Shown in pieces: positions 5,172 to 54,010 of a stretch of 64,000 bases of DNA (positions within the stretch are counted from its first letter, which is position 1; each line of letters opens with the position of its first letter). Source of the stretch: Synechocystis sp. LKSZ1 (GTDB lineage: Bacteria; Cyanobacteriota; Cyanobacteriia; Cyanobacteriales; Microcystaceae); the NCBI RefSeq assembly GCF_040436315.1, contig NZ_AP031572.1, positions 3,162,001 to 3,226,000 on the forward strand, read 5' to 3'. Position numbers and translations under genes: made by a program. A model generated the notes under the pieces. The model was not told the DNA's origin. It did no database searches and worked only from the letters and a program-made list of their open reading frames with translations.

Positions 5172-5498
5172 TTAACGACCACTACCAACAGCCACAGGGG
5201 TTTTGGTAGCAGGAACAGGGGGCTGATATTCACGTAGACTGGGGAAGAGGAAATGATTCTCCTCGACGTACTGAGCACCAAAAAGTCCTTTTTCAGCCCA
5301 AAAATATCTGTCGGTGGTGTGCTCGTTTCGTTTTACAATAAGTAGCGCAGGTGGTTGAATCCCAACGGACTGAATATACTTGCGGGCCGCTGTAACCGGC
5401 TTATCTTCACCGCTTTCTATATTAAATTGAGGGATTAATTCGAGTATCTTGCGACCTTCCTGCCGACGGCGACTTTTCCGTTTGCGTTTACGTGCCAA
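5172..5498 (-). CDS. DUF3155-like small basic cyanobacterial protein
   Basis: A 108-residue protein with a very basic N-terminus (MARKRKRKSRRRQEGRK), then a conserved body including PQFNIESGEDKPVTAARKY, IVKRNEHTTDRYFWAEKG and FGAQYVEENHFLFPSL. This fits the DUF3155 family as I remember it. The Arg/Lys-rich head suggests nucleic-acid or ribosome binding, but no function is established. It stands alone, convergent with UPF0367. Confidence 0.75.
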   Translation of the reverse strand: MARKRKRKSRRRQEGRKILELIPQFNIESGEDKPVTAARKYIQSVGIQPPALLIVKRNEHTTDRYFWAEKGLFGAQYVEENHFLFPSLREYQPPVPATKTPVAVGSGR

Positions 5499-5732
5499 CC
5501 CAGTTACCTCCTATTTCAGGTAGATGCTGTAATCATAGTTACAAAAGCCGGGTCGATTATATCCGGTCTGGCCTAGAAAATCAACCACTGTTTCTGCTTT
5601 CTAGGCATCTACCATCTCTACAGTTAGGCCCTAGCTGAAGCCTGGTTTCACCGTTTTGGAGGTCTAGTTTTTAGGGAAGCCCCCATGCTCAAAATCTTAT
5701 TATTCCTTCACAAATCTCTTCTAAACGATTAA

Positions 5733-7076
5733 ATGTCTGCCCAGGACTATTCGGTCTACGCTTTTAGCCCAGAGTTAGTGGCCCTTTGTCAGTCACAGGT
5801 TCGGCTTTTGCAACAAGGATTGCGAGTGGACTGGGGGGGAGTCTATTTGCGGGTACCGGAGGAGGTTTATACGCCCCTAGGCGAGGAAACGGAACTTAGT
5901 TTTATTCCGATTGCCGTCTATCCGACTTATCTAGAAGCGGAGACCAGCATTACCACAGGGCTCATTAGCTTACCACGTCTCGGTCATTTTCCGTCTAATT
6001 TTTCTTTACCCATGGGCAATGACCCGTTTTCTTTGGCGGGGGTTCCTGTCGGAGATGGAGAGTCCCTGCCCCCAGGGGCGCTGATGCCCTTGCCAACAGA
6101 GCCGCTGGTTCTGCCCCTACTCTATCAAGAGATGATGTTAGGGGTTTTAGTCGCTAGCCGTACGAAGGATGAATGGCAAGCCTCGGAACGTCAACAACTG
6201 GAGGCGGTCGCTTACTCCTTGGCCATTGCCTGTGTCCTAGACCGTCGTCAGGCCTGGTATCAAAACCAATGGCAACGGCAACAACAACGACAGCAATGGG
6301 AACATGACCATTGGGATGACCTGTTGCACCAACTCCGTAACCCAATTACGGCCCTGAGAACCTTTGGCAAGTTACTCCTAAAACGCTGGACTGGCGATGA
6401 TAAAACCCAAGGGATTATTCAGGGGATTGTGCGGGAAGGGGAGCACCTGCAAGATTTATTAGTCCATTTTGAACGGGACGTGACAGCAGTCGAGGCCAAT
6501 AGCCTGGAGGCCGATGAGGAAATGTCGGCCCGTGAGCCAGCGGCCCTCTTGCCGAGTCGGTCGTTGTCCCTCGTTCCCCTATCCCTTCAACAGGCCCTAG
6601 AACCGGTCATTCTAGCCATCCAAGCCATTGCAGAGGAACGGCACCTGGCCCTAACGGTGCCTATTTCGGAGTCTGAACCCTGGATTCATGCCCAGGCGGC
6701 GGCACTCCGGGAAGTCCTGAGTAATTTACTGGATAATGCGGTGAAATATAGTCCCGATGGGGGCCAGATTTTTCTCACCTACCGCTCCCATACCATTGCT
6801 CCCGAGGCCTGGATTGGGTTAGAAATTGCGGATACAGGCTACGGTATTCCCCCCGATGATCAGCAACATATTTTTGAGCGGCATTATCGTGGCCAGCAGG
6901 CCCGAGGGCCAATTCCTGGTAGTGGACTGGGTCTCGCCATTGTCAAGGAGTTGATGGAGGCGATGCAGGGCCAGATCGAAGTCATTAGTCCTAACCACGC
7001 CGATCCCCAAGGTCATTACCCTGGCACGAGTTTTCGGCTATGGTTTCGGCGGGCTGACCCCTTGATTCATCCTTAA
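5733..7076 (+). CDS. hik2: GAF-type sensor histidine kinase, Hik2 / chloroplast sensor kinase (CSK) type
   Basis: A soluble 447-residue kinase without membrane helices. The N-terminal sensor domain (about 1-175, GAF-like) has a cysteine at position 19 in FSPELVALCQSQVRLL; from memory, a cysteine at this place is the conserved Fe-S/redox-linked residue of the Hik2/CSK group. The H-box is LLHQLRNPITALRTFGKLLLKR with the phospho-acceptor His about residue 199. ATPase motifs are LSNLLDNAVKYSPDGG, IADTGYGIPPDD and GSGLGLAIVKEL. Hik2 relays plastoquinone redox and salt signals to Rre1/RppA in Synechocystis. Subfamily naming is by recognition and less sure than the kinase call. Confidence 0.8.
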   Translation: MSAQDYSVYAFSPELVALCQSQVRLLQQGLRVDWGGVYLRVPEEVYTPLGEETELSFIPIAVYPTYLEAETSITTGLISLPRLGHFPSNFSLPMGNDPFSLAGVPVGDGESLPPGALMPLPTEPLVLPLLYQEMMLGVLVASRTKDEWQASERQQLEAVAYSLAIACVLDRRQAWYQNQWQRQQQRQQWEHDHWDDLLHQLRNPITALRTFGKLLLKRWTGDDKTQGIIQGIVREGEHLQDLLVHFERDVTAVEANSLEADEEMSAREPAALLPSRSLSLVPLSLQQALEPVILAIQAIAEERHLALTVPISESEPWIHAQAAALREVLSNLLDNAVKYSPDGGQIFLTYRSHTIAPEAWIGLEIADTGYGIPPDDQQHIFERHYRGQQARGPIPGSGLGLAIVKELMEAMQGQIEVISPNHADPQGHYPGTSFRLWFRRADPLIHP

Positions 7077-7149
7077 CAGGTGCGGCAGGATTCGAACCTG
7101 CGACCGTCCGCTTAGAAGGCGGATGCTCTATCCACTGAGCTACGCACCC
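7077..7149 (-). tRNA. trnR: tRNA-Arg (anticodon TCT)
   Basis: On the minus strand the 73-base cloverleaf starts GGGTGCGTAGCTCAGTGGAT. It has anticodon loop CTTCTAA (TCT, reads AGA/AGG), T-arm GGTTCGAATCC and acceptor 3' strand CGCACCT with discriminator G. CCA is not encoded. Acceptor pair 1:72 is G-U. It directly abuts the kinase stop codon, in the opposite direction. Confidence 0.95.
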
Positions 7150-7180
7150 TAGAACCATGCCAATTATACCAAGCTCAGCC

Positions 7181-7306
7181 TTAGAAGAGGGCCAATTCAT
7201 CCTTGACAGTCTCTGGGCTTGGGGCCTCAAATACTATCTTGGGAGCCTGACGCTTCGATAGAGGTTTTTGCATCGGCGGCAGGAGCTGAGCTGAGGATGA
7301 TACCAT
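7181..7306 (-). CDS. Possible small ORF, 41 residues
   Basis: An ATG-started frame of 41 residues ends PSPETVKDELALF and is basic in the middle (KPLSKRQAPKIVF). Codon choice looks natural. There is no Shine-Dalgarno motif and no family I recognise. It lies divergently from the DUF4335 gene, just upstream of tRNA-Arg. An internal ATG would give 30 residues. It may be chance. Confidence 0.3.
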   Translation of the reverse strand: MVSSSAQLLPPMQKPLSKRQAPKIVFEAPSPETVKDELALF

Positions 7307-7368
7307 GCTAGGGAAGATTCTTGAAGTAAGCCACTGTTCAAGCGTCGTCGTCAGGCCTCGAACGCTGT

Positions 7369-8760
7369 ATGCCAATGCTATCCCGTACCCGGATTCTCCG
7401 CAGTTATACCCCACCGACCTGTCGGCTAGAATTATTGGCCCGGCTCCCACTCTGGGAGGCCCTGGGGCGTCAATCCCATTCCCCTCTGCCTGAAGATTTT
7501 CAATTTGAGCTTCGTTTTGATGACCCCCGTCTACCGGAAGACCGTCAGGCAATCCTCCGAGGGAGCGCCACTCAATTGCGGGAACTCCAGCAGGTGCTTG
7601 AGGCCTATTTACAAAATTTTCTCTCCCGCTCTCTTGTCCCAGCTTCAGCGGCTCTCCCCGAATCATCCGAGGCCCCCGTTCAATATGCGACCCTTAATTC
7701 CTTAAGCTTGCAATACTGCCCTCCTCTCCACCACCAATTCTGCTTTGGTCGTTTAGACAGTCCCAGTCATGCCAATCCCCTCCTGACCCTAAGTAGCTCC
7801 CAACTTTTTGATTTAGCCCAGGCCCTAACGGCTTTTGCCCAAGAGACGCACGCGCCAGCCGCGCCCCTGCCCTGGAGTCGTACTCAACGCTGGGGCTGGG
7901 GGGTTGGGGCCGTCGTTGGCATCGCGACGGTCATGGCCCTCACCCATTTTGGTATTCGGACTATCTCAGAAAACCCAACGGCCCTAGAGAATTTACCGAG
8001 CAACCCTCCCATAAAAAACCGCTTTAGCTTTACAGAAGTCATCCCCCCAGTTCCCCCTGCTCCTGGACAAGGCCCTTTTCCCCAGGCTAATCTCCCTACG
8101 CCATTAGCGGCCAGGCCAACCTTACCTCCGCCGGGTAACCTCTCCAGTGCAACACCTCCGCCCCGCAATGCCACCGTTAATCTCGTCGTCCCGCCGAGCC
8201 GAGTTCTGCCCCCGCCTCCCGTCGTACCTCCGGCCCCAGCCAGTAATACGATCACCATCCCCCCTCCTAGTGCTGTCGGTAGTTCGGTTATTCCTGAAGC
8301 GGCCCTCCTGCCCCAGGCTAATTTGCCCATCTTGCCACCGCAAGGCCCGGGCATCGCCAATTTTCAAGGTCAAATTCTGCCCCAGGCCCCCCAATTGCCG
8401 CCCCTGGCCCAAGGAAATGTGGGTTTCTCTTTCCCCTCAGCCCCACGTCCCGAAATGCGCCCGACTCCCAGCCTGCTAGACCCTATTCCCCAGGTCGCAG
8501 AAGTCAGGGCCTACTACGAAAAATATTGGCAACCGCCCCAGGAACTCCAGCAAACCCTAGAATATCGCCTACAACTGGATCCCAATGGAACCTTAAAGCA
8601 AACGACTCCCCTGGGTAAAGCAGCCAGTCTCTACTTGGCAAAACTGCCCCAGCCTAATCCTGGTTCTCCCTGGGTTTCTCCCCTGACCGTTGAGGGAGAA
8701 AGAACGATTCGCCTTGTGCTCAGTCCTAATGGTAGTGTTAAGACTTTTCTGGATGAGTAA
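7369..8760 (+). CDS. DUF4335-like membrane-anchored, proline-rich cyanobacterial protein
   Basis: A 463-residue protein. The N-terminal region contains RSYTPPTCRLEL and FQFELRFDDPRLPEDRQAIL, which recall the cyanobacterial DUF4335 family. One transmembrane helix lies at about residues 175-196, followed by a long proline-rich stretch (about 215-380) and a short C-terminal domain ending SPNGSVKTFLDE. DUF4335 proteins are of unknown function. Two ATGs (7369, 7375) are possible starts; neither has a clear ribosome binding site. No operon partner is adjacent. Confidence 0.7.
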   Translation: MPMLSRTRILRSYTPPTCRLELLARLPLWEALGRQSHSPLPEDFQFELRFDDPRLPEDRQAILRGSATQLRELQQVLEAYLQNFLSRSLVPASAALPESSEAPVQYATLNSLSLQYCPPLHHQFCFGRLDSPSHANPLLTLSSSQLFDLAQALTAFAQETHAPAAPLPWSRTQRWGWGVGAVVGIATVMALTHFGIRTISENPTALENLPSNPPIKNRFSFTEVIPPVPPAPGQGPFPQANLPTPLAARPTLPPPGNLSSATPPPRNATVNLVVPPSRVLPPPPVVPPAPASNTITIPPPSAVGSSVIPEAALLPQANLPILPPQGPGIANFQGQILPQAPQLPPLAQGNVGFSFPSAPRPEMRPTPSLLDPIPQVAEVRAYYEKYWQPPQELQQTLEYRLQLDPNGTLKQTTPLGKAASLYLAKLPQPNPGSPWVSPLTVEGERTIRLVLSPNGSVKTFLDE

Positions 8761-8912
8761 GGAAGTTACGGCTCCATCTTGAGGTTGACTCACTGCTAAT
8801 TTAGGGGCTAATGCCAAAGTAAAAGGGGAGGTGGATCGGCCATCACCCTAGGTGACTAGTGGATTAAATTAGAAAAGCCGTTAAGAGTGTACCACGTTGC
8901 ACAAATACTACG

Positions 8913-8940
8913 TTTATCTCCTGGAAAATTCTTATATAAT
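8913..8940 (+). promoter_or_regulatory. Candidate promoter of the AMIN/beta-barrel gene
   Basis: A perfect -10 box TATAAT (8935-8940) is 36 bases before the ATG. TTTATC at 8913-8918, 16 bases upstream, is a weak -35 candidate. The surrounding sequence is AT-rich, unlike the genes on either side. Confidence 0.4.
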
Positions 8941-8976
8941 TTCAATAAATTTTAAAGCGTGAGGAGTTTTAAGATA

Positions 8977-11217
8977 ATGCATTTAGCGTGGCGATATCCT
9001 AGTTTAGCCCTTGGTTTACTAATGCTAGGTATTTGGAAGGCTCCTGTTTACGCTAACGAAGCTCTTGCTACTGAGGGACAGGAAACCCTGACGGCTAGGC
9101 CTACGACCGTAGATAGTCAAGAAGAAATATTGACAATTGTTGAAGAAGTTTCTGTCACTAGCGAGGGCCTCGTTCTTAAAATTCAGGGAACGGCCCCTCA
9201 AACAAAACTCAAATTGACAGTTGATGAGCAAAACCAAACGAATCAATTATTATTAACCCTAGAAAAAACCAAACTGGCCTTTTCTGTTCCGATCAACAAA
9301 AATCAACCCACTCAAGACATCAGTGGCCTGCAAATTCGCCAAGACTCGACACGCCAAGTCGTTGAAATTCGTTTTAATTCTCTACAAAACTGGCAAGTTA
9401 TCACCCAGCAACAAGCTTTACAACTAAGACCCGCCGCCCTGGCCCAAAATCCACCTGATTCTGTTACCCCCCATTCCCCTAGTCAACCAGTCGTGACACC
9501 GGAAAAGTCTCCGCTCTCGACAGAACCCAAAGCCCTAGCGCCCCTGGCCCAGAGTGCCCCAGAGCAAGTACCCACAACCCCAGAGGAATCTCTTCCAGAA
9601 ACGGAGAATATACTGGAAACTCCGATTGATAAGGCTCCGATGCAGCCGGTTACCCCCCTCAATCGTCAACCGATTCGTCTACTTCATTTGAACACAGCGA
9701 ATCAACTCCAGCAGGGCGATGTTGCTATTAGTTTCGGCGAAACTCAAACCATCCAAGGGGGCTTTGGTACGGGTAATCAAAGCTACTTTGCCTATCTGGA
9801 TTGGGGCGTGACGGATAATTTGCAACTCGGTTGGACTTATATGATCAATGACGATCCGACCTACAACCCAATTAATAGGGTTTTCATTCCTCAGCAATAT
9901 CAGGCCACTGGCCCCAACTTGAAGTATCGATTTTATCAAGATGAGCACTGGAGTTTAGGAATTCTAAGTTCCTTGGAACAATTCCAAATCTATAGTGGCC
10001 CTGGCCTGTTTAATAATTATCGCTCTCCAACGGTGAGTAACACGATTGCAGGAACTGTTCAATTCCCTATTTCCTATCGTTTTAATGAGCAATTTCAAGT
10101 TCACATTACGCCAGCGGTCAATATTTTTTCCAATAGCCTGAATGGCGTTCCCTTCTATGGAACTGTCTTTAATTTAGGCCTGGGCGGTAGTTGGTTAGTT
10201 AGCCAAGATTTTTCTCTCTTTGCCAATGCCGTGATTCCTTTAACCGGCGATAATGCCTTCAATGCTAATCGAGATTTTTATAAAACTGTTATTTGGTCTG
10301 CGGGTGGAACCTACGCCTTCAATAAGGCGATTGCTGTAGAACTTCATGTCACCAATTCCTTTGGGGGAACGCCAACGACAGGAGTGCTAACCTTGCCAAC
10401 GGCGGCCAATGAAGTATTGATTGGAGGTCAATTTATCATGGTTCCCTCCGCCAAAGAAGTGCGTCAGATTCCCTACAGTGAGCACCAGAAAAAATTACTG
10501 TTTGATGGTTTTACCCTCACCTCTCCCTACGTTCTACCCACGGATAATTTTGGCATCCGACTGGCGGGGGATTCCAAGGGCAGTATTGGCGGGGGCCTCT
10601 ACTACGGTTTCTTGCAAAACTTTCAAGCCGAAGTTCTTTTTTCTTCCATTAGTGGCTTTGATACCCAATCGGTGCTGCAAACCGAAGCAGGTACAGAAAC
10701 CCAGTATCGGCTTGGGGGCAAGCTGATGTTTTTAAATCAAGCAGACCAGGACCCCTTTTCCCTAGCGGGCCGCTTAACGGTGGGTCGAGATATTGGCAAT
10801 GAACAGGGATATATGATGCTGGAATTTCCGTTCATGTACGAATTCAATTCCCAGTTAGCGGCTTTGTTTTCACCGAAAGCGGCCATTAACGGTGGTAATA
10901 CCCCTGTCGGTTTGGGGCTTGGCCTGAACTATCAAATCTTACCGGCTGTTCAATTGATTGGTGAAGTGACTCCCATTGTGACCGGTGAGCGAACTGTCTG
11001 GGCAGCGGGTTTGCGTTTCTTGCCCATGGATAGTTTGGCCATTGACCTACTGGGAACCAATGCGACGAGTCTATTAGATCTGGGAGAATTAGTGGCAGAA
11101 CCCGGTACTCGATTTTCGGCTAGTATTCAGTGGCATTTTGGCCCATCCTCTAGTAGTCGTCCATCCCCAGCTGCTGTACCCTCCTCTCAGGATAATCCCC
11201 AGAAGTCATTGAATTAA
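8977..11217 (+). CDS. AMIN-domain outer-membrane beta-barrel protein
   Basis: A secreted 746-residue protein. After a signal peptide (hydrophobic to about residue 27, cleavage near VYANEA) comes an AMIN-like domain (about 40-150: VTSEGLVLKIQGTAP, VVEIRFNSLQNW). AMIN domains bind peptidoglycan or periplasmic partners. A Pro/Thr/Ser-rich linker follows (about 155-225). The long C-terminal region of alternating polar/aromatic strands (QSYFAYLDWGVTDNLQLGWTY and others) looks like an outer-membrane barrel and includes a terminal Ser-rich tail. I start at ATG 8977 because GAGGAG precedes it. The specific role is unknown; porin-like or envelope tether are possibilities. Confidence 0.75.
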   Translation: MHLAWRYPSLALGLLMLGIWKAPVYANEALATEGQETLTARPTTVDSQEEILTIVEEVSVTSEGLVLKIQGTAPQTKLKLTVDEQNQTNQLLLTLEKTKLAFSVPINKNQPTQDISGLQIRQDSTRQVVEIRFNSLQNWQVITQQQALQLRPAALAQNPPDSVTPHSPSQPVVTPEKSPLSTEPKALAPLAQSAPEQVPTTPEESLPETENILETPIDKAPMQPVTPLNRQPIRLLHLNTANQLQQGDVAISFGETQTIQGGFGTGNQSYFAYLDWGVTDNLQLGWTYMINDDPTYNPINRVFIPQQYQATGPNLKYRFYQDEHWSLGILSSLEQFQIYSGPGLFNNYRSPTVSNTIAGTVQFPISYRFNEQFQVHITPAVNIFSNSLNGVPFYGTVFNLGLGGSWLVSQDFSLFANAVIPLTGDNAFNANRDFYKTVIWSAGGTYAFNKAIAVELHVTNSFGGTPTTGVLTLPTAANEVLIGGQFIMVPSAKEVRQIPYSEHQKKLLFDGFTLTSPYVLPTDNFGIRLAGDSKGSIGGGLYYGFLQNFQAEVLFSSISGFDTQSVLQTEAGTETQYRLGGKLMFLNQADQDPFSLAGRLTVGRDIGNEQGYMMLEFPFMYEFNSQLAALFSPKAAINGGNTPVGLGLGLNYQILPAVQLIGEVTPIVTGERTVWAAGLRFLPMDSLAIDLLGTNATSLLDLGELVAEPGTRFSASIQWHFGPSSSSRPSPAAVPSSQDNPQKSLN

Positions 11218-51890: not shown

Positions 51891-52352
51891 CTATGAGTAG
51901 CGCTTTGTCAGGAGAAGCCCGATTACCTGAGGAAACAGTAGGGCTAAGCCCGCACCACAGACTAACCAGCCGATGGAGCTAAACCCCTTCTTCCGCAGTT
52001 CTCCCCCGGCCCCTTGACCAGGGAAAGCCTTTTGCACCAATCCCCAGACAGCTAGAGCCAGGGCCAGTTGCACCAGACTGAAACCCAGGAGGTAGGCAAA
52101 TAACGGCGGCATTCCTGTTCCGACAATGGATTCACCGTAGGCGTAGCCATGGAGTAGGCCGGCTAGGATAAATAGTCCTAACGACAAACTCAAGGGCAGG
52201 GATTTCTGAAACGCCAACAGGAGGCCAATCCCTAGGACAGAGGTAGAAATGAGGAATTCAATGCCCGGAATAGTGAAGGCGGCTAAATGTAGGCCCGTTC
52301 CTAGCAAAGCAGAGACGATAAAGGCCCCCAGCAATCCCAGGCCTCGGGCTGA
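51891..52352 (-). pseudogene. hupE: hupE remnant lacking the 5' third
   Basis: The frame encodes about 150 residues matching the C-terminal two thirds of HupE/UreJ permeases: LLGAFIVSALLGTGLHLAAF, FILAGLLHGYAYGESIVG and FSLVQLALALAVWGL. A full protein has a signal peptide and the metal-binding HPxxGxDH segment in front. Here an in-frame TAA (52353-52355) sits just upstream and no ATG or ribosome binding site is near. Cyanobacterial HupE is a cobalt/nickel transporter usually placed behind a cobalamin riboswitch. The riboswitch is now 1.5 kb away, behind cbtB and another gene. A shortened active protein from a TTG is possible but unlikely. Confidence 0.75.
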
Positions 52353-52457
52353 TTAAGCGGCTGCAAGTAACCTCTGCAACAACACTGAGATTTCTCGTCA
52401 GTCCGCTCCAGCAGGTTTGTCAGACCGTTTTTGCAATCGTAGCTAGCAAAACTTCAG

Positions 52458-53588
52458 CTAACGACTAAACAGGATACTTGATCGAGAAGAACGTCGATGA
52501 AACCAAATACCAGCTAACAAACTTAAAGCAAAAATTCCAGTGTAGTAACTGAGTGAAATAAACCGAATGTAGAGAGGCGGTTCAATTCTTTCAACCTCTA
52601 CCTCGTGACTCACTTGCAACGCAACTCCGTTAGGCGGTGTAACTTCCGCAATGACCTGATGAGGTGCACCATCGAAAAACTGCTCGTTCCAAGTTAGCTT
52701 ACCCTGGTCGTCAGTGCTCCCCTGATAAGCAAACATCTGTTTATTATCTTCAAGCGCAATTGATTTCGCGTTGACAATAACATTCACTTCAGGATTACCA
52801 GTTTTTGCGTTAAAAATCTGAATAGTCTGACTTGCAAGCCGTCCGACTGTTGCCCGTTGATCTCCTGATAAACGAATCTCTAAATCTTGGGATCTCTGTA
52901 CAGATAGAGTCGTCGTGGTTTGCGTCTCCTCTCTAGCGTGGGCGGATGCAAGTTCCGCGCTGATATTAACGAACAAAAGAACCGCGATCGCAAGCACAGT
53001 AACAGCACTGAGCAGTAACCGTATGGGTTGAGGTGCAATTTCACCATCTTGAACCGTTTGGTCGCCTCCAATTATCCAGCCACTAACGCCTCCAACAAGT
53101 ATCAGAATGCCAATCAAAATAGCAGCATTCCTATACTTCACAAATCTTTCAGGCACTGAAAGCTTTAACGATTGCTCGAATGGCTCAAATGCCCCTGCAA
53201 CAAGAGGAGTCACTTGAGCTTTCAACATGTAGTTTCCCCGAATTGGCATTACTTGCTCAAACTCTAGTTTCCCGCTAGGAGCTTTTGCATTGAGTTCAAG
53301 CAATTTAGTTCCTTCCACAATTGGAAAATCAGAAGTGAACCAAGGCGTTTTGGCCGGGGTTAGTAGTTGTAATTGGAACCGCACATCAGATAAGGGCTGT
53401 CCCATTGGATCAACTGCTTGCAACGCAACCCGAACGGACGCTTCATCGGGAATAACTTGGCTTAAAGCGGGTTCAGTCTGCACCTGTACAGTCGGCTGAG
53501 ATGCCGGGGAAGGAAGAGGATTGAACCAAAGGAATACTGAAACAAGGCTAGCTGCTAAAGCCAGCCCAACATACTTTAAATTTCTCAT
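52458..53588 (-). CDS. Novel 376-residue membrane-anchored beta-domain protein, riboswitch-controlled
   Basis: I recognise no family. Helices lie at about 5-22 (signal anchor or signal peptide), 155-174, 190-210 and 342-364. Two beta-rich, Ig-like domains are at about 30-150 and 225-335, likely extracytoplasmic. A short His-containing segment (ASAHAREE, about 215-221) follows the third helix. It lies 36 bases after cbtB and before the hupE remnant, under the cobalamin riboswitch, so a role in cobalt uptake is inferred from context. It lacks the GGCC-rich character of neighbouring genes and contains a HIP1 site (52984-52991). Confidence 0.75.
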   Translation of the reverse strand: MRNLKYVGLALAASLVSVFLWFNPLPSPASQPTVQVQTEPALSQVIPDEASVRVALQAVDPMGQPLSDVRFQLQLLTPAKTPWFTSDFPIVEGTKLLELNAKAPSGKLEFEQVMPIRGNYMLKAQVTPLVAGAFEPFEQSLKLSVPERFVKYRNAAILIGILILVGGVSGWIIGGDQTVQDGEIAPQPIRLLLSAVTVLAIAVLLFVNISAELASAHAREETQTTTTLSVQRSQDLEIRLSGDQRATVGRLASQTIQIFNAKTGNPEVNVIVNAKSIALEDNKQMFAYQGSTDDQGKLTWNEQFFDGAPHQVIAEVTPPNGVALQVSHEVEVERIEPPLYIRFISLSYYTGIFALSLLAGIWFHRRSSRSSILFSR

Positions 53589-53623
53589 GACATTCTCTCA
53601 GTCTGGATAACGCTGTAATGATG

Positions 53624-53809
53624 CTAATGGCAGGCAACTGCCGCCGTACCGTGCCGGGTCGTATGCAACGCATCATGCACGGGTGGATAAGTGCTGAAGT
53701 ACAGCGTCCAGATAATTAGTGCACATAGGCTAGTTAGCAGAGCCACCTGAACTGGAAGCGAAAGTGTAACTTGCTTGGTGCGTTGCCAAACAGAAGTTGA
53801 ACTGATCAT
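53624..53809 (-). CDS. cbtB: CbtB, proposed cobalt transporter subunit
   Basis: A 61-residue protein with one membrane helix (about 18-38) and a metal-ligand-rich C-terminus: FSTYPPVHDALHTTRH and a final CH (H45, H49, H53, C60, H61). This is the CbtB signature. CbtA/CbtB was proposed as a B12-regulated cobalt transporter in proteobacteria. CbtA is not found next to it; the 376-residue gene takes its place. ATG 53809 has GAGG nine bases upstream, and lies just after the cobalamin riboswitch. Confidence 0.88.
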   Translation of the reverse strand: MISSTSVWQRTKQVTLSLPVQVALLTSLCALIIWTLYFSTYPPVHDALHTTRHGTAAVACH

Positions 53810-53835
53810 GATCTGTACCTCGCAGTGGAAACTAG

Positions 53836-53962
53836 AGCCAATCATCGGCGGGTATTCTGACTTAGAAATTAGGCTATTTCATCACAGTTGCGGGCCAGCG
53901 CTGGACTTGCACCAAACTTTCCCCTTTACCTTCGGCGACTGTTCCCCGCCGAAACCGACTTA
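53836..53962 (-). promoter_or_regulatory. Cobalamin riboswitch
   Basis: Read on the minus strand it holds the diagnostic blocks in order: GGTTTCGGCGGGGAACAGTC, AAAGGGGAAAGTTTGGTGCA, then AAGTCCAGCGCTGGCCCGCA, ACTGTGATGAAATAGCC and finally GTCAGAATACCCGCCGATG. The B12 box lies in GCGCTGGCCCGCAACTGTGA. The 3' end is about 27 bases before the cbtB ATG. It should repress translation or transcription of the cbtB operon when adenosylcobalamin or B12 is ample. Confidence 0.95.
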
Positions 53963-54010
53963 GTCAACATATCACACCTCGGCTAAGAAACTAGCTCAGA
54001 GAAATTGAAC

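Follow-up and report, generated by a model that had tools for sequence, protein, structure and literature searches.

Three described systems of cobalt transport lie closest to the locus analyzed here. The CbtAB system (PF09490 and PF09489) is defined by the presence of CbtA, either adjacent to CbtB or elsewhere in the genome; to our knowledge, uptake of this type has hardly been tested. The ECF transporters CbiMNQO and NikKLMQO include subunits in which an extracytoplasmic domain lies between two transmembrane (TM) helices, and NikK/NikL or CbiN serve these transporters as accessories. The third system is the HupE/UreJ cobalt permease; HPXXGXDH has been described as the signature of the HupE family, and HupE of Synechocystis has been reported as a cobalt importer (PMC7689651). 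CbtAB is called a predicted cobalt transporter (PMC2667541; PMC4771312). As reported for a methanotroph that has both CbtA and CbtB, repression of cbtB improved growth, as did a lower cobalt content of the medium (PMC13108547), and in a Methylobacterium study overexpression of CbtA/B gave no growth gain under cobalt limitation (PMC2773004).

Here, we describe an operon from Synechocystis sp. LKSZ1 located in the window, i.e., the whole stretch of 64,000 nucleotides that was analyzed. A cobalamin riboswitch is followed by cbtB, by the gene of a 376-residue protein (hereafter X), and by a remnant of hupE (Table 1). The locus shares with CbtAB the one-helix CbtB with its His tail, the cobalamin riboswitch and the B12-making hosts; however, the partner of CbtB is X, CbtB falls below the TIGR02459 cut-off, and, because CbtA is absent from the genome, the locus is not CbtAB. 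With HupE/UreJ it has in common the riboswitch class and an element in the start region, and HupE stands behind the switch in two genomes of the same genus, whereas neither X nor CbtB matches HupE, and the window has only a remnant that lacks both HPxxGxDH and the full set of helices. The likeness to the ECF transporters consists of CbiM-CbiQ genes adjacent to cbtB-X at 7 of 28 loci and of the TM-extracytoplasmic domain-TM plan found in X as well; in contrast, the operon in the window has neither an ATPase nor CbiM, and profile comparison shows no significant similarity between X and the K or L proteins of Nik type. Among the literature matches listed, subscription papers being outside the scope, there was no cyanobacterial CbtB with a named partner and no CbtB-X pair.

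B12 is limited by cobalt supply, and cbtB-X points to a little-studied route of cobalt uptake. Because CbtB travels here with X and not with CbtA, the pair hints at the part of CbtAB that can be exchanged. The two genes form a pair open to deletion and assay, and the combination of a broken hupE with a cassette behind the only cobalamin riboswitch of the genome amounts to a natural replacement experiment.

Table 1. Features of the riboswitch-cbtB-X region (positions in the window)
Feature	Position	Strand	Basis
Cobalamin riboswitch (RF00174)	53830..53972	-	cmscan, 49.2 bits vs gathering threshold 31.5
Conserved element CUGCGAGGUACAG ahead of the cbtB start; may form a small hairpin whose loop holds the Shine-Dalgarno GAGG	53811..53827	-	comparison with other leaders
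cbtB; product of 61 aa with one predicted TM helix and the motif HxxxHxxRHxxxxxxCH at the C terminus	53624..53809	-	PF09489, alignment with relatives, TM scan
X; 376 aa, TM - Ig-like - TM - TM - Ig-like - TM, no family, near-constant neighbor of cbtB	52458..53588	-	
hupE remnant without the N-terminal part that bears HPxxGxDH	51891..52346	-	PF04955, comparison with intact HupE
Likely transferred cassette riboswitch-cbtB-X	52453..53958	-	81% identity to a Cyanosarcina MAG locus (L003), ending at the X stop codon

The riboswitch, its leader and CbtB

The genome of the window (G000) is a single contig of 3.67 Mb, and a genome-wide RF00174 search found one cobalamin riboswitch in it, the one before cbtB. 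A preliminary description, made from the letters of the sequence, had recognized this riboswitch, and cmscan on the window bears it out, with a score well over the gathering threshold (Table 1) and the model covered end to end (positions 1-189 of 189). Its placement stood, whereas its end had to be moved: the 5' limit is 53972, ten bases past 53962. The element between the riboswitch and the cbtB start is also found before hupE in G074, G091 and G005. It may possibly fold as a small hairpin with the Shine-Dalgarno sequence in the loop, weakly supported by pair counts: in a covariation test over 18 riboswitch loci (all 20 except two near-copies), the score was reached by 11 of 500 shuffles, and a slide by one column scores higher.

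The identification of CbtB was likewise confirmed by PF09489 (32.2 bits, above the cut-off of 27), although the protein reaches only 24.3 bits against a cut-off of 64.4 in TIGR02459, a hypothetical equivalog in NCBIfam. Comparison with relatives places the start of cbtB at the ATG at 53809; the mechanical start of the open reading frame, 53845, falls inside the riboswitch. Single-sequence fold prediction gives one long helix at low confidence (mean pLDDT 67) and an unreliable tail. All 32 rows of the alignment conserve the HxxxHxxRH part of the tail, and 31 conserve the terminal CH (FH in L102). The tail is the clearest candidate for a metal site of the pair.

Counting each cbtB locus once, a riboswitch lies 5' of cbtB at 20 of 43 loci, i.e., at 8 of 11 on plasmids (one of them the plasmid copy of Leptolyngbya boryana) and at 12 of 32 on chromosomes or contigs (the window, L003, L004, L005, L007, G131, G195, G294, G165, G306, G058 and G127). 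Of the 20 riboswitch-negative chromosomal loci, 16 were searched with lax settings, and no cobalamin match came up. We mapped the riboswitch label on a midpoint-rooted tree of 41 X proteins, from which the broken copies of G332, G127 and G350 were excluded; three changes are needed, compared to a mean of 14 after shuffling. Riboswitch loci occur in both deep branches, one clade of 19 has none, and three further loci beyond this clade also have no detected riboswitch. On this tree, the riboswitch before cbtB looks like the ancestral state. The riboswitch-free clade is made of 16 loci of the family labeled f5 and of plasmids of Anabaena, Microchaete and Scytonema; f5 is taken to be Nostocaceae because of this grouping, and three other f5 loci are placed elsewhere in the tree. 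At two loci (L100 and L101), the 3' part of the riboswitch persists before cbtB though the Rfam search scores none, a case of riboswitch decay.

Protein X and its pairing with CbtB

The search with X gave no Pfam match below E 0.1 and no NCBIfam match. A Pfam scan of 29 members of the family gave weak matches only, mostly of Ig type (YtkA in 6, Big_1 in 4, others in at most 3; best E 5e-4), and PF09490 matched none of the 29 at E 0.1. The earlier claim that the protein following CbtB is not CbtA thus stands, and a known unrelated family, which had been named as a possible refutation, did not emerge from either database. The AlphaFold2 model built from five sequences (mean pLDDT 75, pTM 0.65) has a helix at 4-22, an Ig-like domain, two helices at 149-174 and 187-216, a second Ig-like domain and a helix at 339-374, and the hydropathy profile is consistent with these four helices. 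There was no known transporter fold among the best 50 matches of the fold search in PDB, which were mixed, mostly Ig-like or otherwise beta-rich, with TM-scores of 0.16-0.23 by query length. In the sequence search in PDB, a giant bacterial grappling-hook protein was matched weakly (E 2e-4); the seven other matches have E of at least 0.5, and six of them are transthyretin or transthyretin-like. Few candidate ligands are conserved at 93% or more in the 30 aligned rows, namely D60, D87, E92, E147, E183, E212, E280, D306 and H310. Compared to each other, the two halves of X reach an hhalign probability of 18-23%, which is suggestive only of an internal duplication. By eye, a 249-residue protein downstream of X in L107 resembles half of X, having one extracytoplasmic domain and one helix, and adjoins a putative membrane protein; L104 has a similar case.

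The preliminary description had suggested that X be sought together with CbtB and with cobalamin riboswitches in other genomes. An alignment search detected X in 27 of 386 genomes of the phylum, and CbtB (PF09489, E 0.01) was found in 28 of them, in 18 above the cut-off; 26 genomes have both (Fisher test, 5e-37, a value that ignores common descent), and the riboswitch accompanies the pair at the 20 loci given above. The order and strand of cbtB and X are constant at all 29 loci measured, including four from named contigs (L003, L004, L005 and L007), with a gap of 4-501 bp. The exceptions are mostly broken genes. In G350, which has X without CbtB, X is reduced to a 3' remnant of the last ~70 residues; in G127, which has CbtB without X, a frame-shifted remnant preserves the first ~74 residues of X; and in G222, also without X, the CbtB match is weak (17.8 bits vs the cut-off of 27). 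In G332, a change of frame breaks X in two. The G127 locus (L084) presents X decaying in place while cbtB stays. CbtA is over the cut-off in none of 232 genomes of the class, with three sub-threshold matches; this sample overlaps that of the 386 phylum genomes and is not identical to it. Therefore, of the proposed new module of CbtB and the 376-residue protein, the module itself stood as a recurring unit, but it is not peculiar to this genome and occurs in other cyanobacteria as well as on cyanobacterial plasmids.

X is present on 14 plasmid records, all cyanobacterial; in 13 of them, 80% or more of the query is matched at a single site. The neighborhoods of 11 of these records were inspected (H5, H6 and H11 were left out), and in each of the 11 cbtB adjoins X, which is annotated as hypothetical or unknown. 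A multicopper oxidase of one cluster, one member of which was confirmed by Pfam, occurs near X at 15 of 28 loci. At seven loci (L085, L089, L091, L094, L098, L102 and L105), cbtB-X is combined with a divergent multicopper oxidase and with downstream CbiM-CbiQ, and there is no riboswitch; perhaps the regulator or the metal changed at these loci. The idea that X replaces a missing N-terminal part of the adjacent CbiM was dropped because this CbiM has ~307 residues with a long C-terminal extension. A DUF1636-type gene lies 3' of X in L096, L100 and L101 (in L101 by Pfam).

The hupE remnant, probable transfer of the cassette and other transporter genes

The truncation of hupE noted earlier is real: the match to PF04955 (67.1 bits) covers profile positions 60-176 of 179 only, with the N-terminal end missing, and this remnant is the sole HupE match in the genome. 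The motif HPxxGxDH is present in 6 of 6 HupE relatives chosen regardless of it, and in six more chosen by an HP/DH filter. Among genomes of the same genus, G074 has an intact hupE next to GcpE behind the riboswitch, as does G091, judged by DNA similarity, and the riboswitch precedes cbiM and cbiN in G078, in which no HupE was found; X is absent from the three genomes of the genus that were tried. Around GcpE (ispG) of LKSZ1, the 1.5 kb to each side contain no hupE. The remnant is 46-47% identical to hupE of the genus over 127 residues and 43% to that of G294 over 138 residues, and the genes flanking it in the window gave no match to the flanks in G074 or G091. Because the remnant is not especially close to the hupE of the genus and the flanks are unlike, we consider this a replacement in role rather than one demonstrated in place.

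Besides the Cyanosarcina locus (Table 1), L004 matches positions 52459-53959 at 75% identity. The DNA similarity covers riboswitch, cbtB and X and stops at the X stop codon, so that the simplest account is a transferred cassette; the match has the riboswitch itself at its 5' end, and recombination within the riboswitch is therefore possible too. The GC content is 0.46 in cbtB-X, 0.546 in the hupE remnant and 0.511 in the window, and the GC3 of X is 0.374 vs 0.53-0.61 in three neighboring genes. The 120-base stretch that separates X from the hupE remnant was considered as a possible inserted element; this idea was rejected, the stretch having matched its own genome only, among the loci compared. 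A viral carrier for X was rejected as well: there were two pattern matches in viral contigs, neither of them a relative.

Our inventory of transporters in the LKSZ1 genome covered CbtA, NicO, HupE and CbiM. In this genome-wide search, CbtA (PF09490), NicO and an intact HupE were absent; a cbtA elsewhere in the genome, which would have spoken against the proposed module, was thus not found. X is present in one copy. The genes scanned around the riboswitch (CbtB, X, the HupE remnant and a dienelactone hydrolase, n=4) include no CbiM, CbiQ or CbiO. A single CbiM lies ~158 kb from the riboswitch locus. Its operon also encodes CbiQ, an ABC ATPase and two accessory proteins; we term it Nik-like, after the gene order of nickel systems, and it has no riboswitch. 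The identities of CbiQ, the ABC ATPase and GcpE were confirmed by Pfam for representatives; the smaller accessory protein has weak matches to DUF4198 and carboxypeptidase-regulatory domains, and the larger has no Pfam match. This operon is located in L144 at 6130-9796, and its first protein, of 316 residues, gave no match in Pfam. The Nik-like system might carry cobalt. CbiD is present in the genome, as it is in 31 of 31 genomes tried, and therefore LKSZ1 probably makes B12.

Proposed function and alternatives

We lean towards the reading that the cassette was acquired horizontally and, taking over from HupE, provides cobalt for the synthesis of B12, as an uptake module free of CbtA. The near-constant pairing, the riboswitch, the absence of CbtA and the broken hupE, which can be read from the sequence together with the parts of the operon, all point to cobalt uptake. 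The detailed topology, formation of a complex, identity of the metal, import and independence from other permeases are what we infer, and CbtB-X may work like CbtAB. When cobalamin is scarce, the riboswitch would permit production of CbtB and X; when it is plentiful, the riboswitch would turn both off, probably at translation. An inner-membrane complex would consist of CbtB, contributing one helix and a His/Cys tail in the periplasm, and of X, contributing four helices and two periplasmic Ig-like domains; in this complex, X would occupy the position of CbtA. The CbtB tail and the domains of X would capture Co(II), and the joint helices would carry it inwards. It should be noted that 19 of the 41 loci of the X tree form a clade with no detected riboswitch, that three more loci lack it as well, and that X has few conserved metal-ligand residues and no known transporter fold; these findings count against the cobalt-uptake reading. 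More tentatively, CbtB-X could import cobalt by itself and represent a new type of importer, which has five helices and two Ig-like domains in the periplasm, lacks both an ATPase and a known permease fold, and is spread by plasmids as a B12-switched cassette displacing HupE or CbiMN.

The pair could also be an accessory that captures metal in the periplasm and hands it over to another permease, such as CbiM(N)QO, a Nik-type MQO, ZIP or Nramp, without being the path itself. We consider this less likely than a CbtA-free uptake module, although several observations agree with it. At the 7 of 28 loci mentioned above, CbiM and CbiQ lie downstream of X on the same strand, at four of them within ~0.65 kb of X, and an ABC ATPase is present at six of the seven. 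A CbiM match was found in 24 of the 27 genomes with X (one of these is broken, in G123), so that X might only assist CbiM; Nramp- or ZIP-type genes lie near the plasmid copies, and X has the TM-Ig-TM plan twice, loosely like the small Nik-type protein. However, cbtB-X is kept in the three genomes without a CbiM match, G165, G189 and G195. HupE is present in the first two and absent from G195, and each of the three has NicO-type matches, which are strong in G165 and weaker in the other two. Moreover, G019, which lacks X, has CbiM beside a gene whose start resembles multicopper oxidase, and a relationship of X to the Nik-type L or K proteins was rejected, with hhalign probabilities of 4% and 1% that are not significant (alignments of three rows each).

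Neighboring genes both on plasmids and on chromosomes concern many metals: among the 11 plasmids, an Nramp or manganese transporter is found on 4, a multicopper oxidase on 6 and a metal P-type ATPase on 6. Because these neighbors point to metals in general, the cobalt claim is weaker for the riboswitch-free clade. They also agree with a module whose substrate is a corrinoid or a metal other than cobalt (Mn, Zn, Cu or Ni), the riboswitch reporting B12 status only indirectly, and in Anabaena PCC 7120 a cobalamin riboswitch is reported to govern a cobalamin-uptake cluster (PMC10878165). Such a substrate is nevertheless improbable, given that the same switch precedes HupE or CbiMN in the genus, that CbtB carries the His/Cys tail, and that the operon of G127 (contig C6, ~5270-7540) consists of the riboswitch, cbtB, the X remnant, DUF1636 and CobW. 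That X is a chance neighbor, unrelated to CbtB and part of an operon decaying along with hupE, agrees with the broken hupE and with the GC content of the segment, which is unlike that of its flanks, but is very improbable, X being an open frame that is repeatedly found paired with cbtB, both in the phylum at large and on plasmids.
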